The position numbers and the translations under genes were made by a program. Below the pieces are notes generated by a model. It had not been told where the DNA came from and made no database searches. It was given only the letters and a program-made list of their open reading frames with translations. From Tetradesmus obliquus (lineage: Eukaryota > Chlorophyta > Chlorophyceae > Sphaeropleales > Scenedesmaceae), in NCBI GenBank assembly GCA_030272155.1, contig CP126196.1, forward strand, positions 5,022,501 through 5,086,500: DNA of 64,000 nt, written 5' to 3'. Shown piece after piece: positions 290 through 63,601 of the stretch. How positions within the stretch are numbered: position 1 is the first letter of the stretch; each line of letters begins with the position of its first letter.

Positions 290-1207
290 GTGTGGGCTGA
301 CGTGTACACGCTGCCAGTGCCCGGCTGCGACGGCAAGACAGCAGCGGAGATCTTTGAGGAGGCCGGCTGCACCACGCCCGCAGCACCCAGCTGCGCAGCG
401 TGCCTGGGCGGGCCCCGCGACACATTCGCGCGCATGAACGAGCCCGAGGTAAGCATTTTTGTGTTTGCATGTGTTTTTTGCGGATGCTGGGGTTGTTTCA
501 GCATGTTGGCGTGCCTGGGCGGCCTTTGCGACACCTTTGCGCGCATGAATGAGCCCTGGGTGCGATGGGTAGTGTCACAAAGCAATCCCACTGTCAACAT
601 GGATTGCGGTGGCGGCGGCGGCGGCTGCTGCCTATTGCTGGTGTTTGCATGTAGAGATGCGCGCATGAACGAGCCGGGGGGGGGGGGGTGTGCAGCGGAT
701 GCAGGGCCGTCGGTGGCCCATGCAGTACCTGCCTGCTCTAGCAGTGTATGTTTGTTGCAGAACAAATACGACTTAACGAGCTCCTGCCTGCTGCTGCTGC
801 TGCTGCTGCTGCTGCAGGTGTGTGTCAGCACCACCAACCGCAACTTCCCCGGGCGTATGGGCCACAAGGAGGGCCAGGTGTACCTGGCCAGCCCTTACAC
901 CGCGCACATGTCTGACCTGCTGCACTGCTGCTGCTGCTGCTACTGCTGCTGCGGTGCCTGTCATGTGTGTGTCAGCATGCACCACCAACCACAACCATTA
1001 ATGGGGCACACTACGTCTTACGCGTGCCTTACTGCCTTGCTGCTCTGTTTTGTCACACTGCCCTGCCAGGTGTGCGTCAGCACCACCAACCGCAACTTCC
1101 CCGGGCGCATGGGCCACAAGGAGGGCCAGGTGTACCTGGCCAGCCCCTACACCGCAGCAGCATCAGCACTCAAGGGCTTCGTGTGCGACCCGCGCGAGTA
1201 CATGTGA
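290..1207 (+). CDS. leuC: 3-isopropylmalate dehydratase (isopropylmalate isomerase) large subunit, C-terminal end
   Basis: Last two exons, 290-448 and 1070-1207 (stop TGA 1205-1207), both in phase 0; the 5' part lies outside the window. The enzyme isomerises 2-isopropylmalate to 3-isopropylmalate in leucine synthesis, in the plastid of algae and plants. The 98 visible residues are very typical of the family. They hold the CxxC pair (CAACLGGP) that binds the 4Fe-4S cluster together with an upstream cysteine, then ARMNEPE, the hallmark [12 protein letters not shown], and [11 protein letters not shown] close to the C terminus. The intron 449-1069 contains two partial copies of the first exon's end (509-556, 658-675) and one long copy of the last exon's start (818-904). 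Identity is near certain; only the extent is limited by the window. Confidence 0.93.
509..904 (+). repeat. Exon-edge echoes in the leuC intron
   Basis: Copies at 509-556 and 658-675 match the 3' end of exon 290-448 ([14 protein letters not shown] region). The copy at 818-904 matches the first about 85 bases of exon 1070-1207 and is preceded by a CTG tract and CAG acceptor, exactly like a real exon start. All copies carry substitutions, and the long one runs into unrelated intron sequence after the TACACCGC block. Confidence 0.85.
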
Positions 1208-2308
1208 GGCGGCAGCTATGTTCGAGGCAAAGGCGAAGCTGTTACTGCTGCGCAGCAGACTCGCGCCCACTGCAGCAGCTGTGCAGGCGGATGTGTTGCA
1301 GCTGCAGCTGCAATGTCAGCGCAGTGCAGTGCAGCTGCTGGATGAGGTGCTGCTGCTGCAGCAATGATGTGCTGAGCTATGGATGGGGCTCCTGCAAGCC
1401 GCTGTGCGGCTGCAGGGGTGCCTGGAGTAGCAGTGCTGTGCGCTGCTGTTGTCTTGTGATTTGTTGTTGTCCTGTTGCTGGTGTGGTTTCGTGCCAAGCG
1501 CTGCTAGCATTCATCCAAGCGCTGGTGTGTTGGATGTCTTGGCAGGAATTTTGGGTCAACGGTGCACAGTAGCGCCCAGGTGCAAACTGTGGTCGTCAGG
1601 CCGCGGCTGTGTCTTTGAACCAGCTTATGTGCCACTGCATGTCCCTGCAGACAAGCCTGCTGTGCTTGCTGTATGCTGAGCGTGTGATGCATGACGAAGG
1701 CGTTCCATACTGCCCTTGCTGCTGATAAAGGTGCCATGTGGGCCCTTGTAATGTACCACTTCTCTGACTGTCTGGGCTGGTGCATGCCCTGCCTTGTGTA
1801 TGGGATCAACCATCGTGTGACAGCTCACCTTGGCAGTAGTCTGCAAATATGATTTCATGAAGAGTTTGCTGTGTGCTCTGGCCTCCAATTAAGCTCTTGC
1901 AAAGCCACTGCACATCAGAACCTGGCGCTAGTCTGGCAGACAGGGTCAGCTGCATACTGCCAACAGTAAAAGCTACGCCCAATGCAAGTAAAGCTGAAGA
2001 CACACTACTCGGCTAACAGTACATCGTTTGCTACCTGTGTTGCTGCAGCTACTTGCCTGACTACTCCGAACAGGGACTGCTGCTCAGGCTGCTGCATGCA
2101 CGACCAACTGCCAAAAGAGTACAGTTGTCCTGCAGAGGCCAGAGCAGCCTAAAACTTATTCTAAGCAGTTTTCACTTGTTGATCGTTCTTTATCAGCCTG
2201 TTGCGTAACGCGTTATCTCTGTGAAACCGACCCTGGTGCCAACCAGTGCAACCAACCATAAGCGTGCGGAGCACGTCAGTAGGCCGTTTTGTTGCACCAT
2301 AAGGTACC
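1208..2308. other. Intergenic region between leuC and GLG1
   Basis: Holds the 3' UTR of leuC and the promoter of the next gene. Open frames here are short and of odd composition. Apart from the TGTAA motif at 1747 nothing specific is visible; no TATA box is obvious before 2309. Confidence 0.6.
1747..1751 (+). promoter_or_regulatory. TGTAA polyadenylation signal of leuC
   Basis: TGTAA, the usual poly(A) motif of chlorophycean algae, lies 540 bases after the stop. It is short, so chance occurrence is possible. Confidence 0.45.
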
Positions 2309-4939
2309 ATGGCTCGGTCACGGTTGTTAGCAGCCACTGTGCTGCTGCTGCTATGCTTACTTGCGAGCAGCGCTTCTGCAGAGGACAAGCCCGCAGCCCC
2401 GGCACCAGCAGCAGCTCCTAAAACTTCTAAAATCATAGAATCGGCCGGAGAAACACAGCTACCGAACGGCGTTGGCGACGTGGCCAAAGATGGTGGGGAG
2501 CAGCAGCAGAGCGGGAGCTGTCCTGTGCTGTCCTGCCATGCCTCGGGTCAGGTGAAGCTTACTGCACATGCATGATCTGCAGGTGCCTGCAAAGCTGATG
2601 CAGCGGCTTTTTGCAAGGACGCTACACCAGGGGAGGGGCGCTTGGCCATGTGCCTCATAAAGCGGATAAAGCAGGCGCAGCAGGGCAATGTGGCAGGTGC
2701 GCAGCTCAAGCACACCTGCTGGCAACTGCCTCACAGCTCACAGTGCTGTTGTATCTGGTGCAAGTGCTCACTGACATACTTTCCTGCAGGCCGCATGGTG
2801 CGTCCAAAGTGTGAAGAGGCGGTTGCAGCATACAAGGTGGAGCGCAGCAAACACATCAACAAGGATCCTGCGCTGGGTGAGTGCTTAGCTTGCTATAGCA
2901 GCAGCAATGAGTATCACGCTTGCCTTTGTTGCTATGCATGTGCTTGCAGGACTGCTTGACCTTGCTTTCTGCAGCAGCAGAGCTTTGTGTAGTTGCGATT
3001 GGTGCTGCAATCGCATGCTGACGCCATGTGTGTCTGTGTGCTGTTGACTGCTGCAATTGCAGCGCGCGCGTGCAAGGACGACGCTGCAAAGTTCTGCAAG
3101 AGCGTCAGCGACACCAGCACACCAGGCAGCGTGCTGATTTGCCTCAGGTAGTGTTAAAAGCGGCAGCCATGCAGCATGAATGAGCAGCTGCACAGCAGCA
3201 GCAGCAGCAGTGAGTCACTAGCAGCAATTTCCACAAGCAGGAGGTGTGCAGCTGCTACACTGGCCTGCAGTGCTGCACAGATAGCCAGCCTGGCACCATG
3301 TGCCGTGCAGTGTCTCAGCAGTAGGCATTAGCAGTGTTTGCGACGTTCCGCACAGCTTCTGGCTCACTGGCAGTTGCTGCTGCTGCTGCTGCTGCAGGGG
3401 CAACCAGAAGAAGCTCACCACGCAGTGTCAGGGCGAGATTCTGAGGACGCAGGCAGAGGTGAGCGCAGCGCACGTGTTGCAGTACAACATCACCCCACAT
3501 GGTTTGTCAGCAGGCTTCAGGTATTGTATGCATTAGAATCAATTGCGGCGGCAGTGCTACCCAGGTGTTGGTGCCTGCTGTGACACTCTTTGAAAGTAAT
3601 GATGAAGGTAATTTTGCAAGTAATTAACTTTTTATTGCTGCTGCTGCTGCTGCTGCTGCTGCAGATCGCTGAGGACTGGCGGCTGGACCCTCAGCTGTAC
3701 AGCGCGTGCAGCGCCAGCGCAGCGAAGCTGTGCGCGGACGCTGAGCCAGGCACTGAGGTCGACTGCCTGGTGCGTGGGCACAGCAGCAGCAGCAGCACGT
3801 ACAGCAGCAGCAGCAGGAACACGGCAGGCAGCAGGAGCAGCATTGCAGGCAGCAGCAGCATTGCAGGCAGCAGGACCATCAGCAACAGCACTGCACTGCA
3901 GGCAGCACCTGCTGGCTTTGGGAACACCGCAGCAGCATGCACCGTGGGTCACGCACTGCACAGGACGCATGCAGCAGCATGCAGCAGGCTGATATACCGT
4001 ATAGCGCTCATTGGCTGGCGCGCTGCGTCTGGTTGTGGCAGCAGCGGTCAACACTTTCTTGCAGCAGCCTTGAGGCGTCCCCAGTGTATTAGCAGCTGTC
4101 ACGACGTGTGATGCGGTCTGTGCTTGCAAGCATGGCAGCAGCTGTCATGCTGACAAACAGCGTGCACACGCATGCACATTCAGTTGCCACCCTGCCAACG
4201 CTGCTGCTCAGCAACCACAGCTGTACTGTTATGCATCGCAATGACCAGCAATGCATTACGTTGTCGTTGTTATGCTCAGCTGGCTGCCTCCACGAGCCTG
4301 GACTGGACCTGCTTGGGCCACGTGGTGCGTGTGGAGAAGGAGGCTGCGGGCGACATCCGGCTCAACATGCGGCTGTTCAGGGCCTGCGTGAACGACCAGA
4401 AGAAGTTCTGCAAGGGCGTGGAGCCCGGCCACATGCGCGTGCAGGTGCGCGGCTTGTTTTGTACAATATATTGCGCAAAGGTAGACACGGGAGGGGCTTG
4501 GTTCACATGGTAGTGGTTGAACCGGGCAGCAGGTTGCGGCGGCGCCAGCAGCAGCACGGCACGGGCCAGCTGATGCGGCGGTGGCAGGGCTGGCAAGCGG
4601 GTGCAAGGGCGTGGAGCCGGGCCACACGCGTGTGCAGCTGCGCGGCGCGGCTGGCAAGAGCAGGAATGATTTCTGCGGCGAGAAGGAGGCTGCCGGGCTC
4701 AACATTGATTGCTAGAAGCAGAGGGGGTCTGTGTTGGCCTTCGGCCAGCGACCTGAGGCAGCAGCTGGCAGTGGCCGCAGCTGGTGGGAGTGACAGCAGC
4801 ATGGCATCCTGCACTGCGCTGATCGTGGCTGCTGTGCTGCTGCTGCTGCTTGCAGGAGTGCCTTGAGGACGCCATGGACAAGGCGGGCTTCTCTGGCGGC
4901 TGTGCATCAACACAATGCTAGCAACATTGTTTACTGCTG

Positions 4940-4970
<31 letters not shown>

Positions 4971-5329
4971 CACCGGCTTGCAGGAGTGCCTGGAGGATCC
5001 CATGGACAAGGCGGGCTTTCTGGCTGGCATACCAGTAGCTTCGCCTGCTACGCTGTGCTGTGTTAAGCATGTGTGCTGTTCTGTGTTGTGTTGATTGGCT
5101 GCTGCTTGCAGGAGTGCCTGGAGGATGCCACGGACAAGGCGGGCTTTCTGGCTGGCATACCAGTAGCTTCGCCTGCTACGCTGTGCTAAGCATGTTTGTT
5201 TGTTTTGTCTCTGTCTCAGGAGTGCCTTGAGGACGCCATGGACAAGGCGGGCTTCTCTGGTGGCTGCAAGGCGGTGCTGGAGGAGGTCATCGCGATGCGC
5301 GTGGCAGACTTCAGGTGGGCGGGTTGACA

Positions 5330-5390
<61 letters not shown>

Positions 5391-5861
5391 CAAGCCAGCA
5401 GCACCGCAAGAGTGCGGCGCATGCAGCGCGATAGCGTTTGCGCGTACAGCAACGACGGAGCCCTGGCGCGCAATGCAGTGTAGCAGCACAAGGTTGTTCT
5501 TGTTACACGCATGCTGCGTGGCTTGCCTGCTTTGGACGTGCCTGTAATGTTGTACTTCCTGCTGCTGCTGCTGCTGCCAGGCTGGACACTGGGCTGCTGG
5601 ATGCCTGCGAGGATGACCTGGCAACGACGTGCAGCACGAATGTGGAGAAGATGGAGAAGAGCAAAGAGGAGAAGGAACGGGCAATGGCCTGCCTGCAGCA
5701 GTTCAAGGAGGAATTGGCCAGTGATGCATGCAGGTAGGAGCAGCAGCAGTGTGCTGAGAGCGTGCCAGTAGTCGTTGTTGGGGCAGTAGCCTGGGGGTAT
5801 GGTAGTGTGCCTGCAGCAGTTCAAGGAGGAGCTGGGCAGCGATGCATGCAGGTTATGGGCC

Positions 5862-5893
<32 letters not shown>

Positions 5894-8800
5894 TGCGATA
5901 TATATAGAACTGCATGCCACGTGTCTTGGAGGGCGCCTCCTGCAGCAGCTTGGAGACGGTGTGACCTACCTGCAGCAGAAAGCAGAAGTTTCAGTTGCGC
6001 AGCGGTACTTGCAGGGCAGACGCTTCACCATGCAGCAGCACCAGAGGCTGGCAATGGCGCTGGCAGCATGTGCGCTGTTGTGTTGTGACTGGCTGAGGTC
6101 GTGCATGCCAGCTGCTGAGGCGCATTGAGCTTCACCGGTCAGGCTTTGGCTGCTGTGAACATGAAGGATGGGTGTCTTGGCTCTCAGACGACCCGCCAGC
6201 ATCGCTGATGTTGGTGCTACTGCTGTTGCTGCTGCTGCTGCTTCAGGGACAAGGTGCACCGCAAGATGCAGCGCATGTCACGCGACATCCGCTTTGACGA
6301 TGTGCTGGCCAACGCCTGCCAGGCGGACCGCAAGAGCTACTGCCCTGACGTGCAGCCGGTGAGCAGCAGAAGCAGCAGCAGCATGAGCACGCTTGGAGCA
6401 GCATTGGCAGCAGCAGGAAAAGTATAGTAATATGGAATTGCCAGTTGCGCTGAAAGACATGTGGCAGCAGCAGCAGCAGCAGGCTTGAGAGCAGCACTGG
6501 CAGCAGCAGGAGAGCATAAAATAATGCTAAGGAATATATAGTTGTGCTGAAAGGCATGCAGCAGCACCAGCATGTGCACAGTGTGACCGGCCTGTAGCGG
6601 TGAGAGTTGTTGTTTCAGCTGCGCAGCGGCACTGTCTGCAGCACTGGCAGCAGGCTACTCAGTGGGTGTGCAGGAGCACTGTGCACGGCACCTCTTCAGC
6701 TTGCAACCGCTGAGATGTGATGTGTTGGTGTGTGCGCCAGGCCTTACTGCAGCTGAGCAACACACCAGCGCATTGCATGATCGTGAGGGGCTGCTTCATT
6801 GCAGCATGCACAGTAAGCGCGGCCGCGCTGAGTTAAGCTCATGCAGCTTTGCCGCGCTCACTGCCTGCCTGCCTTGCTGCTGCTGCTGCTGCTGCTGCAG
6901 GGCTCCGCGCGCGTGATCCGCTGCCTGCAGGACCACCGCTCCAGCCTGAGCCAGACCTGCGCGGCGGCGCTGTTTGATCATGAGGTGCGCACGCAGGCGC
7001 AGCATGCAGCTTGTGGTATGTAGCAGCAGCTTTGGCAGTGGGAGCTGGTATGCGCAGCTGTTGGACCATAAGGTCATGGTTCCGGGTTGTGAACCTGTGA
7101 TGTCTAGTGACAATTTCAGCAGGGCGCTAGGACCCTTGCAGCTGTAGCCGTTTGAACTCTGAACCCTGCCAGTGTTGCAGGCTGCACTCGTAATCGAGGC
7201 GCTCAGCAGGATGCAGTCAATACCAAGGCTACTACGTGCTCATGCCACAACCACCATGCATGCGGCATGGTGCTGAATGCTGCCCATGCGTCATCGCTGC
7301 TGCTGCTGCTGCTGCTGCTGCTTAGGTGAAGATGGCGGAGGACATCGACTTCAAGTACCCCACGCGCATCCATGCAATGTTAGTGCTTACCGTTGTACCT
7401 GCACTGCTGCTGCTGCTGCCGCAGGTCAAGATGGCGGAGGACATCGACTTCAAGTACCCCACGCGCAAGGCCTGCGCCTGGGAGATCTCCAACTTCTGCA
7501 AGAACATCCCGCACGGCCACGCGCGCGTCATCCGCTGCCTGCAGGTGCGCTTGTTTGTAGCACCAATGAGGCTGCACCGCCGGCTGCAGTGCGGTTGACA
7601 CGGTGCTGTGCAATGGCAGCCGTAGTGAGGCGGGCATGGGTGTGTGCTGCAGCTCCTGCTGTGTGTGCTGTTATATGCTACTCCTCCAGCAGTGCTGTTA
7701 CAGTGTGTGGCTGCGGCTGGCAATCAGTACGAAACCATTCAGACGGCTTATCATACGGATTTGATAATCCTGCTGATTGCTGCTGCCGCTGCAGAGCCGG
7801 CTGGATGACGAGGACATGTCGCCCGAGTGCAAGGCGGAGGTGGTGCGCGACCATCAGAATGTGTAATCGTGTGTACTGAGCATATGTACTGCTTCCCTCT
7901 TGTCTCACACCTTTTTTTGCACAGAGCCGGCTTGATGACGAGGACATGTCGCCAGAATGCAAGGCAGAGGTGGTGCGCGACCAGAACCGCATGGCGCAGG
8001 ACTACCGGCTGAACTGGCGGCTGAAGACAGCCTGCAAGGCAGACATCGGCAGCCTGTGCGCGGGGCTGTGCAATGACAAGGAAGGGCAGATGTGCGGCGG
8101 CGTGGTGCTGCAGTGCCTGCAGGTGGGTCTTGGGCTCTTGTGGGGCTGTGCGGCGCTGCTGTTGTGCCTTTGAATTGTATTGACAAGGAGGGCCAGATGT
8201 GCGGCGGCGTGGTGCTGCAGTGCCTGCAGGTGCGGCTTATTGGGGCTGTGGGTGTGCAGATGTGGCTGTTGTGCCTTTGTTTTGTAATGACAAGGAAGGG
8301 CATATGTGCGGCGGTGTGGTCCTGCAGTGCCTGCAGGTGCGGTTGTTCTTGGGCTGTTTGGTGGTGACTGCTGTGCTGCTGTGTGCAATGACAAGGAAGG
8401 GCAGATGTGCGGCGGCGTGGTGCTGTAGTGCCTGCAGGTGAGTCGGCTGTATTTGGGCTGCTTGGCGCTGCTGCGGTGGTGCCGACCTTGCGCCGCTGTG
8501 CCGCCCTGTCTCGTCCTGCATCCTTCCCGCAAGTTCCGCATACACGCAAGCGTGACATGCATTGTTTGCCTCGCTCTTTCTCAATTGCTCCTGCAGGACA
8601 AGCAGGACAACATCACCAGTCCTGCCTGCAGCGAGGAGGTCTTCTACTACCAGCTCATGGAGGTGACAGACTTCAGGAACGACGTCATTTTGGCGGAGGC
8701 CTGCCGCGGTGACGTTGACAAGTACTGCAAGGACGTACAGCCAGGTGCGTGCAGTGCTAAGCTTGTTTTCTGACTTGTTGATTTGGGGTTTAGGGATGAC

Positions 8801-10141
8801 GTCATTCTGGCGGAGGCCTGCCGCAGCGACGTGGACAAGTACTGCAAGGACGTGCAGCCAGGTGCGCGCAGCAGTTGATTGTCGTTTGAGGTGGCAGGAA
8901 AAGTGTTATCTTGTCGCAGGGCTGCAGGTGTGATCCGGACAAGTACTGCAAGGCCACGCCATCAGTTACGGCGCCGGCAGGGGCGGCACATCGATGCGCA
9001 GGGCTGCACAAGCTCAGACGGCTGAGTTTGCAGCGCTGAGCGTGCTAAGCATTCTAGCTTGACTTGCTGAAGCATTTGACGTTGCAACTAGGATACGGAC
9101 CTGTAGGCTCTCTTCTCAGCTGCCCTCCGTGCTGACCGTTGGTGCGCTGCGCCTGGACCCTGCAGTTGGCTGCTTGTACGCTCCGATGGGCTCTTTTTTC
9201 ATTCACCTTCTGACGCGCTGCCCGCGCTGGCACTGCATGTGTGCACACACTGCTGCAATGCCTTGTTACTACTGCCATACGTGCAGGCGAGGGCCGCGTG
9301 CACACCTGCCTGCGCCACAGCATGAACTTCCTGTCTCCGGCCTGTGCGCGCGAAGAGGCCAAGCTGCAGGCGCTGGAATTCAGGGACATCCGGCTCAAGC
9401 CCAAGCTGGCCAAGGTCTGCAGCGAGGAGCGCGCGGTCTACTGCAAGGTGCGCATTTTGTGAACAGTTTTTGTGAACAGTTTCAGAAGCAGTGGCGTATT
9501 GCGCTGGGTGAGGGTTAGTGGGTGCAGTGCAAGCTGGCCAAGGTCTGCAGCGAGGAGCGCTCGGTCTACTGCAAGGTGGGTATTGTTTGCGTTGTGCGCT
9601 GTGTGTCTGTGTTGACGGATGGGTGCATGTGTGCATGTGTGAAGGTGCTGGGGCTGTTGGCTCAAGCCCAAGCTGGCCAAGGTCTGCAGCGAGGAGGGTG
9701 CCGTGTACTGCAAGGTGCGGCGCGTATGCGTGACGCACTGTGTATGCGTCGACTGAGGGATTGCATGGGCGGGGTGAATGGGGGTGTGCCGGGTGCAGTG
9801 CAAGCTGGCCAAGGTCTGCAGTTAGGAGGCGCGGTGTACTGCAAGGTGCGCATTGTGCCAACAGCTGTAACAGCAGTGCATTGTGTTGTGCACTGGCAGG
9901 TGGGTGCCGCTCCAGCTAGGAATGTGCGCAAGTACTGCAGGGTGCACTGTGTACGCGGTGACAGAAGTATTGTGTCTGTGTGGGGGGGGGGGGGTGAAGT
10001 GCCAAGGCCTGGCTGCAACAATGCATTCCGCCCGTGGCGCACTTGGTGAGCCTGCTGCTGCTGCTGCTGCTTTCATACTGCAGGATGTCAAGCCTGGCAA
10101 GGCGTGCGTGATCAGGTGCCTGGTGGAGGCCAATCACTGAG

Positions 10142-10174
<33 letters not shown>

Positions 10175-12460
10175 TTCATACCGCAGGATGTCAAGCCTGG
10201 CAAGGCGCGCGTGATCAGATGCCTCGTGGAGGCCATGGCGCAGCCCAACTCACTGAGATTGCTTCTGCTTTCATACCACATAATGTGAAGCCTCACAGGG
10301 CGTGCGTGATCAGCTGCGTGCGGGAGACTGATTGCTGCGCCTGCCGCTGCTGCTGCTGCTGCTGCTGCTGCTTTCATTCCGCAGGATGTGAAGCCTGGCA
10401 AGGCGCGCGTGATCACCTGCCTGGTGGAGGCCATGGCGCAGCCCAACTTTGGCGCGGAGTGCCGCGCGGAGCTGCAGCAGCGGCAGAGCGCCGTGAAGAA
10501 CGACTACAGGTTGGTGATGCAAGATTGGCTGCTGGTGCTGTTGCTTGCGGATTACATGGACTCATTTCAGTGTGAACGCTGCATGCCTGCTGTGTTGCTT
10601 GCCCACCCTGAGATATGACATCGGCGCCCGGAACGGTTGCCGTCAGGACATCACTATATCAGTTGCCACTACAGACTGGTTGCTATCATCCTCGCCATCA
10701 ACATCATCATGCTGGATGTGATGCCGCAGGTACGACATTGGCGTCATGACGGGTTGCCGTGACGACATCGAGGCGTTCTGCGCGGAGGAGAAGACCAAGC
10801 TGCGCGGCAACGCCACTGTGCTGCGCTGCCTGGTGGCCAACTTCGACAAGACAGGTGCGCAAGAGCATGTGCTCGACTGTTTTTGTGTTGCTAGCGCTCC
10901 CGCCAGCAGCTGCTGGGACGTTGGCTCGCAGCCACGGTGGTGGGCTGGCTGGTGGCCAACTTTGTCAAGACAGGTGCGCATGGTGCTGTGTGTTCTGTGC
11001 GGCTGGGCGAGCAGTGTGCACTGGCGCTTCAAGGCTCTGTGTGTGGCAGCGTGACAGCACGAGTTTTGGGGCTGTTGTTGCATGCGGTTGACACTGCTGC
11101 TGGCGGGCAGCACCTCTTTTCATTTACAGTGCTAATGCTGCTGCAGCTGGGTGCTGAATCTCCTATTTGTTTTACTGGGTACGTCCTGCCAGGCGTTGGT
11201 AATGTTTTGCAGTGTGCTTCGCGTTAGATACTATACGCCAGACCACTCATTGCTGCTGCTGCTGCTGCTGCCGCTGCTGCAGGCGAGTCGTGCCAGGCTG
11301 AGATGAGCCGCGCGGTGCGCTTTGCGCTGTGGGACTACACACTACACCGCAGGCTGCTAACACTGCTGCTGCTGCTGCTGCTGCTGCTGCAGGCGAGTCG
11401 TGCCAGGCTGAGATGAGCCGCGCGGTGCGCTTTGCGCTGTGGGACTACACCGCGGGCCAGGCGCTGACGCAGGAGTGTGACGCTGACGTGGACGCCTTCT
11501 GCCCCAAGGTGGGTCGAGGTTTAAATTTTATGCGAACAGGTTGTCTTCTGTATTCATCAAGTTGGGCAGGGATTTGGTGTAACTTGACAAATGAAACCTG
11601 CCGGGCAGCATGTGTATAGCCTAGTCGCGCAGACGCAGCTGACGCGGGAGTGCGATGCTGACGTGGACGCCTTCTGCCCCAAGGTGCGTCAGATGATTCA
11701 TTCAATTTGAATCTTCGGCCCTGCTGGCATCACGTGTACAGCCTAGTCATGCGGCAGCAGCGGATGGGGGTGTGACGCGCTGATGTGGATGCACTCGGCC
11801 CCAAGGTGTGCTCATGTGTGGGCATGCCGCTGCGCCAAAACATTTTTTTACTGCTTGATTTGAGCGGTTCGCAATGTTGGCTTGTCCCTGTAGCACAAAG
11901 TGCGTCACGCATGAGCGGTGCAACCGCATTCAATTGGTGATCAATTCAATTCAATTGCCAAATAATCAAGTCAACTGCCAATCAATTCGAGCTAGTTGCC
12001 TCCTGCGATCATCTTGCTTACCTTTCGTGCTGTGTTGTCGTGCTCGCTGCTGCTGCTGCTGCAGGGTGCCAAGGCGCGCCCCGGCGGTATGTTCACAATC
12101 GGCGCTGTGGGACGCTGCCTAAGCAAGGCCTTAGTACAGGCCAAGTCCCTGGCACCCAAATGCAGGCAGCTGGTGCTTGTTGCAGCGCCTAAGGACAGCC
12201 GAGTGTACCTGCGGTACCCTGAGAGCACCAGTGCGCTAATCACAAAGATAGCAGAGCTGCAGCGGGCAGCAGGGCTTGAGGCGGTGCTGGTGGACCCTTA
12301 TCGAAGGGATGGAGGCAGTGTGACGGTGACTGGCTGGGTGGCGCTTGCGTGCATTGTGAGTTTGATTTTGGTGAGTGTGGGGGGTGTGGTGATGCTGGCG
12401 CGGCGGCTGAGTGGCGCGGACAAGCCGCACACGCACTATGTGAAGAGCGGCGACGCTTGA
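2309..12460 (+). CDS. GLG1: Golgi apparatus protein 1 (GLG1/ESL-1/MG-160) homologue, cysteine-rich type I membrane protein
   Basis: Nineteen exons keep phase throughout: 2309-2492, 2583-2696, 2790-2876, 3063-3147, 3398-3458, 3665-3769, 4280-4444, 5220-5314, 5581-5733, 6247-6358, 6901-6984, 7425-7544, 7925-8122, 8597-8744, 9287-9447, 10385-10509, 10730-10854, 11393-11508, 12065-12460 (877 aa). A signal peptide (LLLLCLLASSASA) is followed by a short Ala/Pro linker and twelve GLG1-type units. Each has a C-x7-C motif such as CKADAAAFC, CKDDAAKFC, CRDDIEAFC and CDADVDAFC, alternating with CL and C partners. Near the C terminus lie one transmembrane helix (WVALACIVSLILVSVGGVV) and a short basic tail. 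In animals the family resides in the Golgi and binds secreted ligands; the algal role is unknown. Least certain are the first donor (2492 versus a GTCAGG near 2546) and the acceptor of exon 7. Nearly every intron carries exon-edge echoes. Confidence 0.9.
4597..4712 (+). repeat. Echo of GLG1 exon 7 3' end
   Basis: Contains a copy of the KGVEPGHMRVQ-coding end of exon 7 at about 4597-4637. A scrambled, diverged copy of the VEKEAAGDIRLN segment follows at about 4680-4712. Confidence 0.6.
4856..5160 (+). repeat. Acceptor-side echo array before GLG1 exon 8 (three copies)
   Basis: Copies begin at 4856, 4984 and 5112, each just after a TTGCAG or TGCAG acceptor. They repeat the first about 50 bases of exon 8 (ECLEDAMDKAGF). 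The true, complete exon is the fourth and last copy at 5220. The second and third copies share a variant (GCATACCAGTAGCTTCGCC tail), so one arose from the other. Confidence 0.9.
5331..5389 (+). repeat. (CTG)n tract in GLG1 intron 8
   Basis: About 19 uninterrupted CTG triplets on the sense strand within intron 5315-5580, just after the donor region. Confidence 0.95.
5801..5851 (+). repeat. Donor-side echo of GLG1 exon 9
   Basis: Repeats the last about 48 bases of exon 9 (CLQQFKEELASDACR) and ends in CAG|GT like the true donor at 5733. A CAG tract follows at 5863-5892. Confidence 0.85.
7326..7367 (+). repeat. Acceptor-side echo of GLG1 exon 12
   Basis: After a CTG tract and TTAG acceptor, repeats the first 42 bases of exon 12 (VKMAEDIDFKYPTR) about 100 bases upstream of the complete exon at 7425. 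Confidence 0.9.
7795..7852 (+). repeat. Acceptor-side echo of GLG1 exon 13
   Basis: Repeats the first about 58 bases of exon 13 (SRLDDEDMSPECKAEVVRD) after CCGCTGCAG. It contains several third-position differences from the complete exon at 7925, then diverges. Confidence 0.9.
8188..8438 (+). repeat. Donor-side echo array after GLG1 exon 13 (three copies)
   Basis: Copies at about 8188-8230, 8288-8338 and 8389-8438 repeat the exon end coding DKEGQMCGGVVLQCLQ and end in CTGCAG|GTGCGG, GTGCGG and GTGAGT. The true donor is at 8122. The third copy has a TAG in place of a CAG codon, so it could not be read through in frame. Confidence 0.9.
8795..8962 (+). repeat. Donor-side echoes after GLG1 exon 14
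   Basis: 8795-8861 repeats the end of exon 14 (DVILAEACRGDVDKYCKDVQP) with its CCAG|GTGCGC donor. 8934-8962 is a shorter, more diverged copy. Confidence 0.85.
9526..9941 (+). repeat. Donor-side echo array after GLG1 exon 15 (three or four copies)
   Basis: Copies at about 9526-9576, 9659-9715 and 9796-9846 repeat KLAKVCSEERAVYCK and end in CAAG|GTG; a remnant lies at 9921-9941. One copy has an in-frame TAG inside the motif. Confidence 0.88.
10084..10330 (+). repeat. Acceptor-side echo array before GLG1 exon 16 (three copies)
   Basis: Copies start near 10084, 10187 and 10279. Each follows a CTG tract and/or a TTTCATA..CAG acceptor-like run and repeats DVKPGKARVI. The complete exon starts at 10385, preceded by CTG triplets at 10344-10372. 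Confidence 0.9.
10617..10975 (+). repeat. Echoes of both edges of GLG1 exon 17
   Basis: 10617-10652 is a diverged copy of the exon 17 start (YDIGVMTGCRDDI), upstream of the exon. 10940-10975 is a copy of its end (LVANFDKTG) with an ACAG|GTGCGC donor, downstream. Confidence 0.75.
11284..11806 (+). repeat. Echoes of both edges of GLG1 exon 18
   Basis: 11284-11340 repeats the start of exon 18 (GESCQAEMSRAVRFALWDYT) almost exactly, behind its own CTG tract. 11637-11684 and 11755-11806 repeat the exon end (ECDADVDAFCPK) with CCAAG|GTG donors; the last is heavily diverged. Confidence 0.9.
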
Positions 12461-16368: not shown

Positions 16369-16422
<54 letters not shown>

Positions 16423-16527
16423 CAGCAAGGAAGGGTGCAAACAGGGTCAGCTCCAAGTCATTCCAAGTCGGCACCAAACAGACAGTTCAGTACAACCCCT
16501 GTTACTAGGAGGGGGGTGAGCCCTGCC

Positions 16528-16565
<38 letters not shown>

Positions 16566-46861: not shown

Positions 46862-49800
46862 ATGGCAGCCCACCGGAGCTTGCCTATGACGGGCTCCTTA
46901 GCAGCATGCTGGCGCACCGCAGCATGCATGCTGCTCTTGGTGATGTTGGCAAACCCAGCAAGCAGTGTGCCGCAGTGGGCTCAGCATGCGGAGGCTACCA
47001 AAGCAGCAGCTCGCAAGCTGTCTGAGCGCCACTGGCACTCCCAGGTGCACCGCTTACAGAGCCTGGAGCTGGATGAGCGGCGTTTCGGAGATATCCTGGG
47101 TCATATTATGCGGCATGAGTACACGCTGCCGATCCCTCAGGTGCAGAAGTCCCTGGTTTACACTGGCGCAAACTTCAGGCTGCGCAAGCTAGTGCATGAC
47201 ATGATTCTGGGCAAACGCCCCTTCAAAGTAGGGGCCATCGGAGGCAGCATCACAAACGGAGCAAAGGCATCTGTGATTGGAGAGACGGACTGGTTCAGGT
47301 GCGGTGCGGGGTATGTGATTGTTGGCGCAGCATGATGATGGAGCAGCAGCGGCAGGCCTGACAGCGCTGCATCTGTTCAGGCTGCGGCAGTGTCAGCTTT
47401 TGCAGCTCCACTCAGCTATGCTGCCTAAGCAGCTGTGGCTGCTATAGGTGGTGCGTGAACTGTTGGCACGAAAACTCAGCCCTGCCGCAGGACATGCAGC
47501 AGCCGCAGTTTGGGCGGGTCAGCTGTAGCAGCGCTGCCACACATGCCGCGTCCCCCGCAGCAGCGCACCTGTGTGCAGGTTTACTGCAATTACCTGGCTG
47601 CTCACAACATTACAAACCAACCAAACACTGCATTTGAATATTGTCAACACACATTGCCGCGTGCCCCAGCCTGGTGGGCAAGTACATGAAGCAGGCCTTC
47701 CCCCGCGCCAGCATCAGCCTGCGCAACGGCGCGCTGCCAGCCACGCCCAGCGCCCTCATGAACATGTGCCTGGAGCAGTACGTGGACGAGGACGTGGACC
47801 TTGTGTTTGTGGAGTATGTGGCAAACGATGGCTCCAACAGGTGGGTGGCTTTGTGGTCATTTAATCCAGGTGTACACCGTGTCCATGTGTGCGACAGCAA
47901 TGAGACAACTGAACATGTGCCTGGAGCAGTACGAGGACGAAGATGTGGACCTGGTGTTTGTGGAGTATGTGGCAAACGACGGCAGCAACAGGTGGGCGGC
48001 TTTGTGGTCGTGAGTCCAGGTGTCTATGTGTGCGACAGCAGTGAGACAATGGGATATTTGCCTGGAGCAGTACGTGGACGAGGACGTGGACCTGGTGTTT
48101 GTTGAGTATGTGGCCAATGACGGCAGCAACAGGTGGGTGGTGGATCGCTGTGCTGCAGTTGAGGCTGGGTGTGCAACAGCAATGAGACAACTGAACATGT
48201 GCCTGGAGCAGTACGTGGACGAGGACGTGGACCTGGTGTTTGTGGAGTACGTGGCTAATGACGGCAGCAACAGGTGGGCAATAGTTGGTTTTGAGGGGTG
48301 TCAAAGCAGATGTTCCTGGAGCAGTACGTGGACAAGGACGTGGACCTGGCGTTTGTCGAGTATTGTGGCCAATGGCGGCAGCAACAGGTTGGTGGTGGGT
48401 GGCTGTGCTGCAGTCGAGGCTGGGTGTATGTATGTGTGACAACATTGACCAGGTGCAGGTTCACGAGGTGAAGGCTAAGGTGTATGAGCTGCTGCTAATG
48501 ATGAGCGCTGCCGCTGCTGCTGCTGCTGCTGCTGCTGCCGCCTGCGCCATGCAGGTTTGAAGGCCAAGGTATATGAGCATCAGGTTCCTTCTTTAGCAAA
48601 TTCAACTTCAAAGTAAAGCAAACTCAACCTCAAATGTGTTGCGAACCTCTGCTGCACTGTGCTGGCGCAGGTTTGACGAGGTGAAGGCCAAGGTGTATGA
48701 GCGGCTGCTGCGCAAGCTGCTGCACCGGCGCAGCAAGCCCGCGGTGGTGCTAATGCAGCTCATGCCCAAGGGCATGGCCTTCGCGCCAGGCAGCAGGTGC
48801 GGCAGGCGTTAGTAACAGATGATAGTACCGTTTTAGTTGTACTGTTCGGGCAGGCATGCAGGCAGCTGATACAGCTGATGCCCAAGGGCATGGCCTTCGC
48901 GCCAGGCAGCAGGTGCGGCAGGCGTTAGTAACAGTGATATAACATTGAGTTGCAGTGTTCCGGCAGGCATGCAGGCAGCTGATGCCCAAGGGCATGGCCT
49001 TTGCGCCAGGCAGCAGGTGCTGCAGGTGCTGCTAGATTGAACATTGAGTTGCACTGCCCAGGCAGGCAGGCAAGCAGGCAGCTGGTGTGGCTGATGCCCA
49101 AGGGCATGGCGGTACGCCCAGCAGCAAATACGGCCACAGCGGCAGCATGCAGTTGGTGCAGGAGGCATTGGTGCTTTCGCAGCATGTGTCACTGCACGAC
49201 TGGCATTGCTGCGCTACCCAATCTGCAGCCTTTTGTACACGTTGGTAGCAGGAACACGCATGCTGGTAATGCCTCTGCCTCTGTACAGGCCATGTTTGGA
49301 CCCCCGTCATGCCAAAACTCACAGCCGCCATTGCTGCTGCTGCTGCTGCTGTTGCAGGGAGAAGGTGCCCTTCCATGGCACGCTAGAGGACATCTATGGC
49401 GCGCAGGCGCAGTACTACGACCTGCCCTGGCTCAGCTTCAGGAATGCCATGTGGCGGCTGTCGGAGCTGCATGTGTGAGTGCGGCAGCAGCAGCAGCAGC
49501 ATGGTGTAGCAGCAGTGGCGGCTGTCCGAGCTGCATGTGTGAGTGCAGCAGCAGCAGCAGCAGCAGCAGCATAGAAGTGGCGGCAGCAGCAGCGTAGAGT
49601 GGCAGCAGCATGCAGCAGCAGGATTTGCGGCTGTCGAAGCTGCATGTGCGAGTGCGGCAGCAGCAGGAGCAGCAGCGGCATGGGTAGCAGCAGTGGCGGC
49701 TGTGAGAGCTGCATGTGTGAGTGCGGCAGCAGCAGCAGCAGCAGCAGCAGCGTAGAGTGGCAGCAGCATGCAGCAGCAGCAGCAGCAGCAGCAATGAGGG

Positions 49801-51758
49801 CTTTCGAAGCTGCATTTGTGAGTGCGGCAGCAGCATTAAGTAGCAGCAGCTGCAGCAGCAGCAGTGTGGTGGTTGGAGCTGCATGTGCGATGACAGCAGC
49901 ATAGAGTGATGGCAACGGCCGCAGCAGCAGCATGGAGCAGCAGCAGTGGGTGCTGTCGCAGCTGCATGGATGAGTGTGATGAGGCAGCGGCTGCACTATA
50001 CTTACGCCGGCCTCCCTGCCCCATGCTGTTTGTCTGCGGCCCTGTCATTCGCCACGGCTACAACTGGACGGACTTCATGTGGGACGCGGATTTCATGCAC
50101 CCCATTAAACCAATGCTCACGTTGTCCCCGCTGTTCTTGTTATCCTTGCTGTCCTCTGCTTTTGCAGCCACGGCTATAACTGGACGGACTTCATGTGGGA
50201 CGCGGATTTCATGCACCCCATCGACCCGGGCATGGCAGCCATATCAGACATGGCGGTGAACCTGCTGCAGAGCACCGCGCTGGGCCTGCTGCTGCACCCG
50301 CTGGGGCGGCAGGACAAGGAGCTGCTGCAGGAGCCGCTGCCGCCACCCATGCACGCAGGTGGGCGTGATAACGTATCGTTTTTTGTGTGTGTGTTAGCTG
50401 AATGTGTCCGTTGTCCCGCTGGGGCGGCAGGACAAGGAGTTGCTGCAGGAGCCGCTGCCGCCACCCATGCACGCAGGTGAGTGTGCCTGTTTGTTCGATT
50501 GTTTGTATGTCTGTTTGGATTGGGGGCGGAGGAGACAGCACTTTGCAGAACACAGACTGTGCATGTACAGCCAGCAATGGAGGGCTTCTCCAGTTCCCAA
50601 TGTAGCTTTTGTAGCAAAAGTAGCAACTGCGGGAAGAGTGGTGGCGTGCCCGTATGGTAGGGGGTGGTGGCGGCAGCACAAGGAGCTGCTGCAGGAGCTG
50701 CTGCCGCCACGCATGCACGCAGGTGAGCGTTTAATTTAATTTTATTTGTTTGAGTAGGGGGGTTGGGGCGGCAAAGGAGAGCATCCTGCAGAACACAGGG
50801 TGTGCATGTACGGCTGCAGCAATGGACGGCTTTACAAACGCCTGCTGTGTCACGCGGCTGCCGCATGTCCTATTGACTGCAGGCAGCTGGCAGGCGCATA
50901 ACCTGCCGTGAGATGTGGCTGCCGCACATCCATGTTGCAGTTTTTTGCTGCATCCCCATACCTTACTTATGCTGCACTATTTTGATGAAATCCTGCAGGC
51001 AACTGGGAGGCTAAGAACCTGATGTGCACCTATGGGGAGGCCTTCAAGCCCCTCGCTGACTCAGCAGCCTCTCAGGGCTGGCAGTTCATCAATGAAGGCA
51101 AGCGCGGTGCAGCCAAGTGGGGCTACGTGAGCAGCACACCAGGCAGCGTGCTGAAGATTGTGGTCAACAGCATGCGCAGCAGCAGCAGCAAGGATGGCGG
51201 CGCAGCAGCAGCAGCAGCAGCAGCAGGGGATGGCGAGAAGATGAATGTCATGCTGGCGTACCTGAAGAGCTACGAGGGCATGGGCATGGCTAAGTTTGAG
51301 TGAGTGGCAACGGTGAAGATTTATGTTAATTCCGTGCTGTAGATAGTTTGGTTTGAGGTTGAGGTACAGCCTGCAGCAGCAGAGCAGTGGCAGCTGTTGT
51401 AGGTGCATGGGCATGGCCAAGTTTGAGTAAGCGGCACATCAGGTCACACAATGGGCACACAGTGGGACACAGTGGCTTAGAGCTACGAGGGCTTGGGCAT
51501 GACCGAATGTGAATGACTGACAACAGCTGGTACATGATACTACGCTCTGATAGTTACAAAAAGGTCGAGGTAAGCCCGCAGCAGCAGACACATCTGCTGC
51601 AGTCTAGTCTTCGTTTGTCACCATGCCTCCCTGCACCGCCTGCCTGCCTGCAGATGCACCTCTGGTTGCAGCTGCAAGCCGCGGCCGCGCATTGACGCGC
51701 TGCACGGCCTGCACTGCCAGACCAACAATTCAGCCTGATGCCAACTGACACATCGGCA

Positions 51759-51789
<31 letters not shown>

Positions 51790-52573
51790 CAGGTGCACCT
51801 CTGGCTGCAGCTGTGAGCTGCGGCCGCGCATTGCCAATCACCTGCTGACACACCAGCAACCGGGCCTAATGCTATCTTTACTGCATGCCTGCCTGCAGGT
51901 GCACCTCCAGCTGCAGCTGCGAGTTGCGGCACCGCGCATCCTGCTGTCATGCATGCAACCCTGCACTGCCAGACGGGCAATTCAGCCTGATGCCATCTGA
52001 CACATCTGCACTGCCTGCCTGCCTGCCTGCAGGTGCACCTCTGGCTGCAGCTGCGAGCCGCGGCCGCGCATTGACGCGCTGCACGGCCTGCGCCAGTCCA
52101 CCATCTTTTTGGTGCGGCTGCTGGTCAGCCAGGCGGCCCGCTGCGAGATCAGCATCACGCTGCTGCAGGACAGCAGCAGCAGCGGCCACAAGTTCAAGGT
52201 GGGTGGGTTGATGGCTGTGGTTGGTGGTCAGCTGCGGAGCAGTACATGCAGTGCTATGTGATCGGGGTTGCCCCTGCTGCCCGACAGCAGCAGCAGCACA
52301 CACAAGTATCAGGTGGCAGCTGCTGAAACGGTGATGCGCTGTTGCCGCCATGCACGCGTTTGACCGCTACTGCTTTGTGCAGCATCCTGCTTGGCTTGCC
52401 TCAATACCTCAACCAAACTTTCAACATCACATGCCTGGACTGGCCTGGACTGGCCTAGCACTATTTGTTACGTCTTCATCTACCGCACCATTGCAGGTGA
52501 GCCGCATCTTGAAGAACAAGTACACCGGGGATGACACCGCATTTGCTGTTCTGCTGTTGCCGTAACACCACCG

Positions 52574-54943: not shown

Positions 54944-54978
<35 letters not shown>

Positions 54979-57518: not shown

Positions 57519-57551
<33 letters not shown>

Positions 57552-59464: not shown

Positions 59465-59503
59465 AACAGCCTGTTGAGTCAAACTTTGACTCAACAGGCT
59501 GTT
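59465..59503. repeat. Perfect 19-bp inverted repeat with 1-base centre
   Basis: Left arm AACAGCCTGTTGAGTCAAA, single C, then its exact reverse complement. As single strand it would form a tight hairpin. Confidence 0.95.
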
Positions 59504-60094: not shown

Positions 60095-60290
60095 ATGCAA
60101 TATGCCAGCCATATGCAAAATGCCAGCCATATGCAATATGCCAGCCATATGCAATGTGCCAGCCATATGCAATATGCCAGCCATATGCAATATGCCAGCC
60201 ATATGCCAAGCCATATGCCCTGCTCAGCAGCTGAGCCAAGCCATATGCCCTGCTCAGCCACTGAGCCAAGCCATATGCCACCAGCTCACA
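60095..60290. repeat. CATATG-rich tandem repeats
   Basis: About six units of around 18 bases (ATATGCCAGCCATATGCA type) followed by three units of about 30 bases (CCATATGCCCTGCTCAGCAGCTGAGCCAAG without its middle in one). CATATG recurs throughout and makes the array rich in dyads. Confidence 0.9.
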
Positions 60291-62459
60291 GAGGCTGCCT
60301 GCAGGTGCGTCCCAGGGCCCGCTTGTAATGCTTGCCTGCATGCACGCTGTAACTGTCTATAACACAGGCTGCCTGCCTGTCAGCTGGCTCATTGAAAGGT
60401 GCAGCGGGTGCAGCCGCCTGCCGTGCTGCTGCTCCTGCATTTTGAGGTCAGCGCAAGCGCAGCAGCTCAAAAACTCAAAGCCGAAAGCTGCAGACATTCA
60501 CAAGCTCGTCCAAATCAGACGCACCGACCACAAGTTGTTGGGCGGTATCAACATTACCTCACGCTGATGTTCAAGTAAGCTCACATGTGAGGCTTTGCAG
60601 TTAGTCAGTTCTGCACAGCCTCACATGCAGCTGAGCAGTTTCAACTCCATACAGAAAAGTAACTCACGGCACTAAGCTGGCCATGCAATTCAAGTTCACA
60701 GGGACGCTGACCCCCCTCACAACGCTGTGGATGCAGCTGAGGTGATTCACGCCCATCTCAACCACACACACAACCTGACGCACCCACCTACAAACACACA
60801 TACTATGAAGTAGTACTTCAGCAGCAAATCTCCCGTCACAAGCGTACATGCTGCCAGACTCACTGCCACAGCGCTGCAGTGCCATACTACTGAAGCCTTC
60901 ATCAGTGCAATCAAGCAGCAGCAGCCCCAGCCACTGTGGGTGTGTGTGTTCTGCATGCAGCATTTTTGAGTTCCAAGAGGGGCCAACTGTCCTTGCAGCA
61001 ACCCACCAACACATGGCTCGCCTTGTAGGTATTGCAGCAGTGCCCTGTTGGAGCCTAGAACCAGCCTGCACTGCAGATAGCGCTGTTCTAGAGCAGATGA
61101 AAGCATCAGCAGTGCGTGGAGCATGCAAGACAGCCGGCGCACAGCACAATAAACAGGGGATACGGCACAGCCGTAGCTGCACCAGCAGCCAGGTCAAAAG
61201 GCACACTGTTATGCCAAGCGAACTGCAAGACCCGAGCATAGGCGGCCATGACCGTCACATGCATTCCCAGCTGTCCCAACTGTGAAAACCAACACTGCTG
61301 CCAAACTTTGCGGATGAAATGCACAGGCGCGGCAACGTCCATGAATTCGTATGGATCGTAGGCCACATGCATAGCCCCACTGGCGGCAAGATGCGGCTGC
61401 TTGCCATGTTGCAACCGCCTTCAGATGAAATGCAACCCCTGCGCTGAATCCCGCCTGCGCACGATTGGTTGCATTAGTTAAACACGGCAACAGCCATGAA
61501 TTGTGTATAGACACCCTCCGGCCAATTTAGCTCCATTTACGGCAGACACCTGACAGCAGTGCAAGAATGTTCAGAGCAGCAGGAACTGAACCCCAGCATA
61601 TAAACACGCTTCAGCAGCCCCCCACAGCATGGAATAAGCCTAAAAGGCACAGCCCGATACCGCAACATGGATAACCTTTGTACAGGCGCACCTTTCGCTG
61701 CATGCAGCCCCACAGAACGATAACGCGAAGATGTGACTTGTGCGCAAGATTTGGTTGCCGGAAGACAGGCAGTCGTGCCACACTTGTGCACTCGGAAGCA
61801 GCGCAGCAGTGCTGACGCCGTCAAGCACCAACCAAGGGAAACACCTGTGTCGGCAACTCCACCCACAGAGACTGCACCATGGGAGCAGGCACAGAACGCC
61901 GCCACAGAACATCAGCGAGAAACCCCGCCGCAGACAACAAGCACAGGACCCCTACTGCATATACATTCAATACACAGAGCTGCCAGGTAAGCCAAAAGCA
62001 CGCTGCCAAGGCCAACACGCCTCTTGCTCCGGCAGTTCTGCAGAGAACAGCACCCCTGCTGATATCCCACCGCGCAACTGCGTACATACACAAACTTTGG
62101 CTGCAAAAGTGTGCACGAGCCCGGACCGACTGCAGTGCCGTGTGTTTCAATGCACCTCTGTATGCGGCTGGGGCAAAGTGCTGTACTGGCTTCTGGCCTG
62201 TGATCACTGGCACAAGTACGCCGCACCCGTTTCAGGACATTGCAACACGCTCTAGCCATGCCCACTGCCGCCGCGCTCTAGAGTTGAGTTATCATTGCCG
62301 CAACAGCAGATGTGAGCAGGATGCTGCAGTCCCAGATCCCCTGCTAACACAGTCATGCCACATGGAACTACCGGCCAACAGCTGTGGGTATTTGTTGTGT
62401 TCCATCATCAACTGTTTGCCAAGCTGCCGCCAGGCGCTGTGCTAAGGGTGGCGAGCCGC

Positions 62460-63601
62460 CTACTGCTCCATCTCCTGCTGCTGCTGCTGCTGCTTCTCAC
62501 GCTGCTCAGCGGCAGCGCGTGCCGCAGGCACATAATCACACAGCGGCCCGATCATTGGCAAGTATGGGAACGCTGCCAGCAACATCGCAGCCAGCTGCTC
62601 CGGCCTCAGCACAAACACGATCGCGCTGCGTGCTCCAGACAGCGTGCGCCACTTGAGCAGGCGCGAGCCCATGTGTGCTACCATGTCCTTGCAGGTGCCG
62701 CGCATGTAGCTGCTGGTGCTGGTGCTAGGGAGGCCGCCACTGCTGCTCCTGCTGTTGCTGCTGCCGTTGTTGCTGCCACGGTTGTTGGCGTCGCCGCCGC
62801 CTGGCAAGCCATTCGCTGCTGCTGCTGGTGGTGAGGCTGCAGGCGCTGCTGTATCTAAGGCCTGCTGCAGCAGCGCAGTGTAGCTGAAGCCATTAGTGGC
62901 TGCGGGCTCATGTTTGTAGCTCGGTGACACAGCTGCGCGGCTGCCGTGCCTCCCGCATGCCTCTCCATGCTGCCCAGCCTCATCCTCTCTCAACCTTATA
63001 GCGTCGCCCCCAGCCGCCGCCGCCGCAGCCGTCACAGCAGCAACCTGCTGCACTGCTGCCCGCCGCAAGCCAGCCGCGCGGCTGGCGCCGACGCGGCCTT
63101 GCATATGCACCTGCTGCTGCTGTTGCTGCTGCTGCTGTTGCTGCTGCTGTTGCTGCTCCTTCTCCTGCTGCTGCACCAGCTGCTGCGCGGCCGCCACTGC
63201 GTGCGCGGACTGCTCTTTCAGGGTGAGCGCCTTCACGCTGTTGATGCAGGCCGCAAGCTCCTGCCGGTCTTCTTCTAGCTGCTCCATCTTTGGCACTACA
63301 AGCCGCAGCACCTCTTCCATCACTGCCAGCTGCTCCAGTGAGGCTTCAGTTGCAATGAAGGCACGCTCCCAGTGGCCTGCAGGGCAGGGCACGGCAGGCA
63401 GCAGCAGCAATGATTGCAGTCAATGAGGTGTGTGGACTTTCAGCAACACTTCCTCCATCACTGCTAGCTGCTTTAGTGAGGCCTCAGTGGCAATGAAGGC
63501 TCACTCCCAGTGGCCTGCAGGGCAGGGCAGGCAGCAGCAGCAGCAGCAGCAGCAGTGGTTGCAGCCAGTGAGGCTTGTGGACCTGGACCTGGCAGCTTTG
63601 G

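Follow-up and report, generated by a model that had tools for sequence, protein, structure and literature searches.

Truncated copies of exon edges, most with a retained splice site, in introns of Tetradesmus obliquus

A 64-kb stretch of the genome of the alga Tetradesmus obliquus (C6:5022501-5086500; hereafter the window) was analyzed for partial copies of exon edges, here termed echoes, that lie in the introns of its genes. In six modeled genes, 81 echoes were found in 28 of 41 introns, and 45 of the 81 were located within the window. All 81 sit on the side of the junction that is removed by splicing, and none is a whole exon equipped with both an acceptor and a donor. The echoes probably originated as direct duplications that straddled a splice junction, the extra copy being tolerated in the intron and thereafter decaying neutrally.

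The six genes were LEU1, GLG1, SGNHa, SGNHb and SGNHc in the window and, as an outside check, CCT1 on another contig (locus L041, contig C16). The assembly comprises 104.66 Mb in 17 contigs; these are of chromosome size, compared to the four chromosomes stated for T. obliquus (PMC5255914). Models for GLG1, the three SGNH genes and CCT1 were built with a purpose-written spliced aligner guided by homologous proteins. The guides were P0231 of Scenedesmus sp. NREL 46B-D3 for GLG1, P0040 for SGNHa, P0001 for SGNHb, P0031 for SGNHc, and TCP1 alpha from the Protein Data Bank (residues 38-451 only) for CCT1, which yielded 10 exons. Two LEU1 exons were placed manually by reading frame. The CCT1 model (414 residues) was 100% identical to part of T. 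obliquus OEZ86_010546, and the SGNHb model differed from P0001 at one of 503 amino acids. P0001 is probably transcript-derived, because its source contigs (at most 2852 bases) are shorter than the 3667-base SGNHb gene. Echoes were accepted in the six-gene scan at a score of at least 20. A self-trained ab initio gene finder was distrusted because it called several echoes as exons. It nevertheless supplied the exon edges for 12 further echoes in the window, for which no homologue was used as a guide; six exons were tried in this way, and two of them had no copies.

The copies were distributed as follows: 36 in all nine introns of CCT1, 21 in nine of the 18 introns of GLG1, 15 in five of six in SGNHc, six in three of four in SGNHb, two in the single LEU1 intron, and one in one of three in SGNHa. 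The range was 1-7 copies per intron and 1-5 per junction, and the median copy measured 58 nucleotides (nt), or 42% of its exon. Seventy-five of the 81 ended no more than 5 nt from the exon edge, and GT or AG was retained in 69 of those. The 12 further copies belong to a CAP gene (eight), a gene near 63 kb (one) and the last SGNHc-side exon (three); two of them end 9 and 52 nt short of the edge. In total, 57 copies in seven genes and on both strands were checked in the window. A first-pass annotation of this DNA had spoken of about 70 copies in seven genes on both strands, which was close. The sidedness that it described (copies of exon 3' ends downstream of the true donor, copies of exon 5' starts upstream of the true acceptor) held for all 81 copies of the six-gene scan. 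Its statement that the splice sites are always kept was too strong in view of the counts above, and the CTG tract that it placed ahead of the copied AG was common, not general. The echoes and their parent genes in the window are listed here by coordinates and strand, with spacings in nt.

290..448, +, penultimate exon of a LEU1-like gene, which we take to encode the large subunit of 3-isopropylmalate dehydratase; frame VWADVY...NEPE, true donor after 448
509..556, +, echo of the 3' end of LEU1 exon 290-448; GT kept, spacing 111
818..903, +, echo of the 5' start of LEU1 exon 1070-1207; AG kept, spacing 252
2309..12460, +, GLG1 (Golgi apparatus protein 1, PF00839), 19 exons, from spliced alignment to P0231
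4856-4902, 4984-5028 and 5112-5156, +, three echoes of the 5' start of GLG1 exon 5220-5314; AG kept, spacings 364, 236 and 108
7795..7853, +, echo of the 5' start of GLG1 exon 7925-8122; AG kept, spacing 130
8176-8229, 8283-8336 and 8382-8437, +, three echoes of the 3' end of GLG1 exon 7925-8122; GT kept, spacings 107, 214 and 315
8789..8861, +, echo of the 3' end of GLG1 exon 8597-8744; GT kept, spacing 117
9530-9575, 9659-9714 and 9789-9845, +, three echoes of the 3' end of GLG1 exon 9287-9447; GT kept, spacings 128, 267 and 398
10084-10132, 10187-10250 and 10283-10326, +, three echoes of the 5' start of GLG1 exon 10385-10509; the last one without AG
11283..11340, +, echo of the 5' start of GLG1 exon 11393-11508; AG kept, spacing 110
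15267..17936, -, SGNHa (SGNH hydrolase-like), four modeled exons, from spliced alignment to P0040
15901-15940, -, SGNHa echo
18607..22273, +, SGNHb (PF13472 family), five exons, from spliced alignment to P0001
19380-19419, 19484-19522 and 19550-19587, +, three echoes of the 5' start of SGNHb exon 19637-20001; AG kept, spacings 257, 153 and 87
20567..20622, +, echo of the 3' end of SGNHb exon 20380-20510; GT kept, spacing 112
28890-28993, 28734-28803, 28599-28659, 28438-28507 and 28247-28322, -, five echoes of the 3' part of CAP-gene exon 29134-29304; three at the edge, GT kept
30255-30297, 30373-30410 and 30497-30533, -, three echoes of the 5' start of CAP-gene exon 29848-30191; AG kept in two
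46844..52202, +, SGNHc, seven modeled exons, from spliced alignment to P0031
47910-47991, 48056-48132, 48192-48273 and 48310-48387, +, four echoes of the 3' end of SGNHc exon 47670-47840; GT kept, spacings 151, 292, 433 and 547
50054..50107, +, echo of the 5' start of SGNHc exon 50168-50358; AG lost, spacing 116
51655-51727, 51793-51833 and 51899-51939, +, three echoes of the 5' start of SGNHc exon 52033-52202; AG kept, spacings 379, 240 and 134
52497-52535, 52609-52647 and 52745-52783, +, three echoes of the 5' start of a further SGNHc-side exon at 52899; AG kept, spacings 402, 290 and 154
63443..63514, -, echo of the 5' start of exon 63177-63376 in the gene near 63 kb; AG kept, spacing 138

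Chance matches were rare. The same echo search returned no matches in shuffled introns, two in reverse-complemented adjacent introns, and two among 426 non-adjacent exon-intron pairs within one gene. Self-BLAST of the window gave 109 pairs (103 direct and six inverted); upon removal of 20 simple-repeat pairs, 88 of the remaining 89 were direct, and the sole inverted pair was a self-palindrome. In 20 control pieces from a third-order Markov model, of which one was all N, there were no direct pairs and two inverted ones. None of the filtered self-BLAST pairs fell in 42.2-47.7 kb or 52.94-59.4 kb of the window, the presumed intervals of the intron-poor genes that had been described as echo-free. 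The copies differ from one another, and each has its own indels and stops; the arrays are therefore not the product of assembly collapse, as the first-pass annotation had also argued. Complete mini-exons, in which the inner end of a copy would provide a hidden splice site, were not seen in general.

The nearest edge-reaching copy was spaced at 87-134 nt at 27 of 39 junctions and at 151-449 nt at the other 12. These spacings were even modulo 3 (14/13/12), showing no reading-frame preference. At the 28 junctions with spacings of at most 151 nt, the exon part made up 0.29-0.63 of the spacing, the low end being partly set by detection, and the duplicated units were roughly centered on the junction. 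The intron flank was copied as well: identity exceeded that of unrelated introns over 60 nt at donors and ca. 50 nt at acceptors.

For comparison of exon edges with other sequence, 50-nt tiles were searched for repeats within 400 nt, and low-complexity tiles were dropped. Repeats were present for 20 of 41 tiles at exon 3' edges and 18 of 41 at exon 5' edges, compared to one of 53 in exon interiors. Four of 338 intergenic tiles had repeats, all spaced by less than 80 nt; the tile list was drawn by hand and may include unannotated genes. No intergenic tile of these hand-chosen 338 had a repeat at 80-140 nt, but non-coding copies of a diverged template would be difficult to detect. The suggestion of a genome-wide habit in the first-pass annotation was supported by CCT1 and by loci elsewhere. 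Nineteen readable random 10-kb pieces gave 127 direct and 15 inverted pairs, and 13 of the 19 had a direct pair spaced by 80-260 nt, the identity of these repeats as exon edges not being established there. One further piece, L014 (C2:800001-810000), was all N as fetched and had no pairs. Nine of twelve chaperonin-family loci, i.e. all except CCT1 and two overlapping loci, were also examined; repeat pairs occurred in eight, and the commonest spacing class was 100-120 nt.

Divergence from the exon was scored by codon position over 82 copies, as opposed to 81 in the census, the end of SGNHc exon 4 having been shifted by 2 nt. Mismatches numbered 86, 71 and 286 at positions 1, 2 and 3, corresponding to rates of 5.4%, 4.4% and 18.0%, with 22.5% at fourfold sites. 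The 21 copies that were unchanged at positions 1 and 2 still differed by 16.1% at position 3 and by 18.9% at fourfold sites, and position-3 divergence did not rise with that at positions 1 and 2 (Spearman 0.12, P 0.28). In the 30 intron bases adjoining these 21 copies, 20.3 matched at donors (seven copies) and 18.6 at acceptors (14 copies), as against 8.6 and 13.5 of 30 for unrelated introns. Overall, 273 differences were synonymous and 163 nonsynonymous; random mutation would be expected to give 26% synonymous. The excess ratio at position 3 was 5.1 in CCT1, 4.5 in SGNHb and 8.2 in LEU1 (two copies). A three-base periodicity of mismatches was likewise evident in the random loci without recourse to annotation (805 in the best phase; mean 751 and maximum 785 over 1000 permutations) and in the other chaperonin loci (310; permutation mean 282, maximum 301). 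Within the CCT1 arrays, the differences from the exon that were common to all copies numbered 14 at position 3 and one elsewhere, a ratio that fits what would be expected if an exon-like history separated the copying from the present.

The copies themselves look dead. The 163 nonsynonymous changes had a mean BLOSUM62 score of -0.36 (standard error 0.12), compared to -0.43 for random changes. Stop-making changes numbered four versus 5.9 expected when each change was considered alone, and three when whole codons were counted. Of 28 gaps, one had a length that was a multiple of three, and the other 27 shift the frame. The splice dinucleotide was lost in six of 75 copies, which fits neutral decay of ca. 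4-5%. Because replacements are random-like, stops are near expectation and gaps are frame-shifting, the copies are under no protein-level constraint, and the extra silent difference therefore does not stem from their own evolution.

Several accounts of the third-position excess were tried and rejected. A shift in codon usage was set aside, as exon-GC/echo-AT differences at position 3 (108) and exon-AT/echo-GC differences (72) are approximately balanced given the decay of the echoes. Serial copying from the exon at a single mutation rate cannot yield the observed ratio, and gene conversion between exon and echo, by reasoning only, cannot lift it above two. Translation of the echoes, prompted by the five-fold excess in CCT1, was abandoned in light of neutral-like replacement severity, stops and gap lengths.

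The process that we regard as probable would run as follows. Short direct duplications of ca. 90-150 nt, about half exon and half intron, would arise often across splice junctions. The survivors would be those in which the extra copy lies inside the intron, where splicing from the outermost donor to the outermost acceptor would remove it. Whole-exon copies and copies that enter the mRNA would be lost by selection, a filter that we infer. A truncated copy, having a single splice site, would mostly be ignored by exon definition, and the retained copies would be neutral and decay. No special machinery would be needed for the intron-only rule, because a duplication at a junction would hardly be tolerated unless its extra copy were spliced out. 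Location, orientation, truncation, spacing, the lack of protein-level constraint and the recurrence on another contig are matters of observation. Junction duplication with selection covers the place, side, orientation and truncation of the echoes; it does not cover the silent divergence of the least decayed copies. For the latter, the simplest source would be a synonymously diverged homologue, which may have served as the template, an unequal exchange between haplotypes joining an exon and some intron of one to the exon edge of the other. We advance only tentatively the idea that the echoes are scars of unequal exchange between deeply diverged homologues, whose exons alone could still pair or be recognized, and the introns a fossil record of vanished alleles. 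Such a template would explain the ca. 16-19% silent difference in the least decayed copies. Its non-coding parts would be too diverged from the outset to be readily recognized; hence intergenic copies would not be seen, and the visible duplications would mainly be those containing coding sequence.

A number of points weigh against this account as a whole. The role of exon definition as a filter is our inference. A duplication within one chromosome should begin identical, so that the synonymous excess calls for an unseen third party. The genome and P0001 differ by the single residue of 503 mentioned above, and P0112 and P0111 by one of 547; these single-residue differences do not point to very high diversity and call for caution. 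The lower limit of 87 nt for the nearest copy over the 39 junctions is unexplained. Repeats were found for 24 of 279 tiles in the parts of introns outside echoes, which means that exon edges are enriched and not exclusive. Several of the random 10-kb pieces had no pair at all, and the density is uneven. The position-3 ratio was weaker in GLG1 (2.4), SGNHc (2.1) and SGNHa (1.6, one copy). Finally, the acceptor array of CCT1 exon 8 has a spacer that is more conserved (39 of 43 identical) than the exon part (56 of 66), the reverse of the order in the CCT1 arrays at large.

Ordinary tandem duplication on the same chromosome, arising by slippage or when staggered breaks are filled in and their ends joined, with neutral decay thereafter, would dispense with a diverged homologue altogether. 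It would account for the direct orientation, the local placement, the sharp inner ends and the multi-unit arrays, and the spacers are clearly alike in the CCT1 acceptor arrays of exons 2, 3 and 8. Small tandem duplications at breaks with complementary overhangs are documented as a class of short insertions of less than 100 bp (PMC8355091). The echoes resemble this class, as described there, in being local, direct and short; they differ from it in that their units are mostly 90-150 nt, are tied to exon edges, and show ca. 16% silent difference even when least decayed. At one mutation rate, position 3 should hold no more than about half of the mismatches, and it held 286 of 443 (P ca. 5e-10 versus 0.5). 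Copies intact at positions 1 and 2 nevertheless differed by 16% at position 3. A single duplication event would leave equal divergence across the unit, yet over all CCT1 arrays the inter-unit spacers were 37% diverged and the copied exon parts 12%, compared to 52% for unrelated pieces; the exon 8 acceptor array departs from this order. The lack of pairs at 80-140 nt among the hand-chosen intergenic tiles may also speak against this explanation, which we deem rather unlikely.

Three further readings fare worse. If the echoes were functional, serving as decoys or regulated alternative sites and being partly translated and selected, the frequent retention of GT or AG and the coding-like third-position bias would be natural; in CCT1 alone, there were no in-frame stops versus 5.4 expected at the mean rate. 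The deposited protein P0113 of OEZ86_010546 (CCT1) contains VLESGSVVP twice, and its extra nine residues are precisely those that would be encoded by a 27-nt microexon (L041 9291-9317) within the third echo of CCT1 exon 9. There, an AG has arisen by a base change, and the GT comes from the donor of the echo. This isoform possibly reflects splicing through an echo, judging from the sequences. On the other side stand the random-like replacements, the near-neutral number of stop-making changes over all genes, the frame-shifting gaps, spacings that are not multiples of three, and a site retention of 0.92, close to the level predicted at 4-5% neutral divergence. Moreover, P0001 agrees with splicing at the outermost sites. 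Functional echoes are thus improbable; the ready-made decoy or alternative sites of the first-pass annotation stand as anatomy, possibly with one isoform, and their function is not supported. Exon-like sequence would also be expected in introns that had been gained when an AGGT-bearing exonic segment was tandemly duplicated, and the model is known from isolated cases in potato, a vertebrate gene and Drosophila (PMC4974935, PMC2891723). The echoes share with these cases a within-gene duplication that multiplies splice sites. They differ from what is described there in that existing junctions are duplicated, each copy carrying intron flank and one existing site beside the junction concerned. By our reasoning, intron gain predicts that a copy of the downstream exon's start comes first and one of the upstream exon's end last; the reverse order was observed, and we hold this origin to be very improbable. 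An assembly artifact, in which divergent haplotypes were stitched together, would suit the allelic look of the synonymous divergence. However, stops, frame shifts and replacements as radical as random ones would be absent from real alleles, a single junction can have as many as five differing units, and the deposited CCT1 and SGNHb proteins match outer-site splicing; such an artifact is scarcely credible.

Other features of the window were noted in passing. Six of the 18 GLG1 acceptors (2309-12460) have at least three CTG in the last 14 intron bases, with no plain pyrimidine tract. Three SGNH-hydrolase-like paralogues (SGNHa, SGNHb and SGNHc) lie within the one window. One exon is ca. 75% identical in DNA between SGNHb and SGNHc, and the echoes are closer to their own exon; by this comparison, those echoes probably formed after the genes split. 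The last SGNHb intron contains a minisatellite with 32/71-bp units (21466-21773) that is not an exon-edge copy. A minisatellite of ca. 23 bp (41879-42190) adjoins a minus-strand reading frame at 42.2-45.5 kb, and two adjoining minisatellites with 18-bp and 30-bp units occupy 60095-60279. The self-palindrome is at 59459-59509, where 51 bases are 90% identical to their own reverse complement. A Pfam scan of eight long reading frames placed CAP above the cut-off in one and nothing in the other seven; the CAP gene is named for this domain in a nearby reading frame. An Rfam scan of the window at gathering thresholds gave no match.

Tandem exon duplication, as in mutually exclusive exons, also places exon-derived copies in neighboring introns; unlike the echoes, these are whole exons with both sites. 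Internal gene duplication, reportedly treated by Gao and Lynch in 2009 (cited in PMC4974935), is said to yield partial copies that touch exon-intron boundaries. The echoes share this property and are denser, given the share of introns occupied and as many as five copies per junction. Introners are described as repeated intron-associated sequences inserted into many genes (PMC9860276); an echo, by contrast, resembles the exon next to it, and hardly any matched another exon of the gene. Among the matches listed in the open-licence literature, no description of exon-edge copies as a genome-wide pattern was found, which is weak evidence of absence. The portions consulted of PMC4974935, PMC2891723 and PMC8355091 describe no gene with several echoes at most of its junctions and do not report the silent-site signature, and "intron" occurs nowhere in the main text of the Scenedesmus obliquus AS-6-11 genome paper (PMC7590803).

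In T. obliquus, then, introns grow as their own borders are duplicated again and again. Several genes and more than one chromosome are affected, and splice sites are multiplied beside the true ones with the protein unchanged. This poses the sharp question of how the spliceosome selects the outermost sites, and it provides natural cases on which exon definition can be tested in an alga. Echoes read as exons can mislead gene prediction in such genomes, and P0113 may illustrate the entry of an echo into an annotated mRNA. If the silent divergence were indeed allelic, introns would preserve lost haplotypes, the silent variants of the echoes would sample a population diversity, past or present, of ca. 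0.15-0.2 per silent site, and recombination between diverged genomes would show its traces at exon edges.

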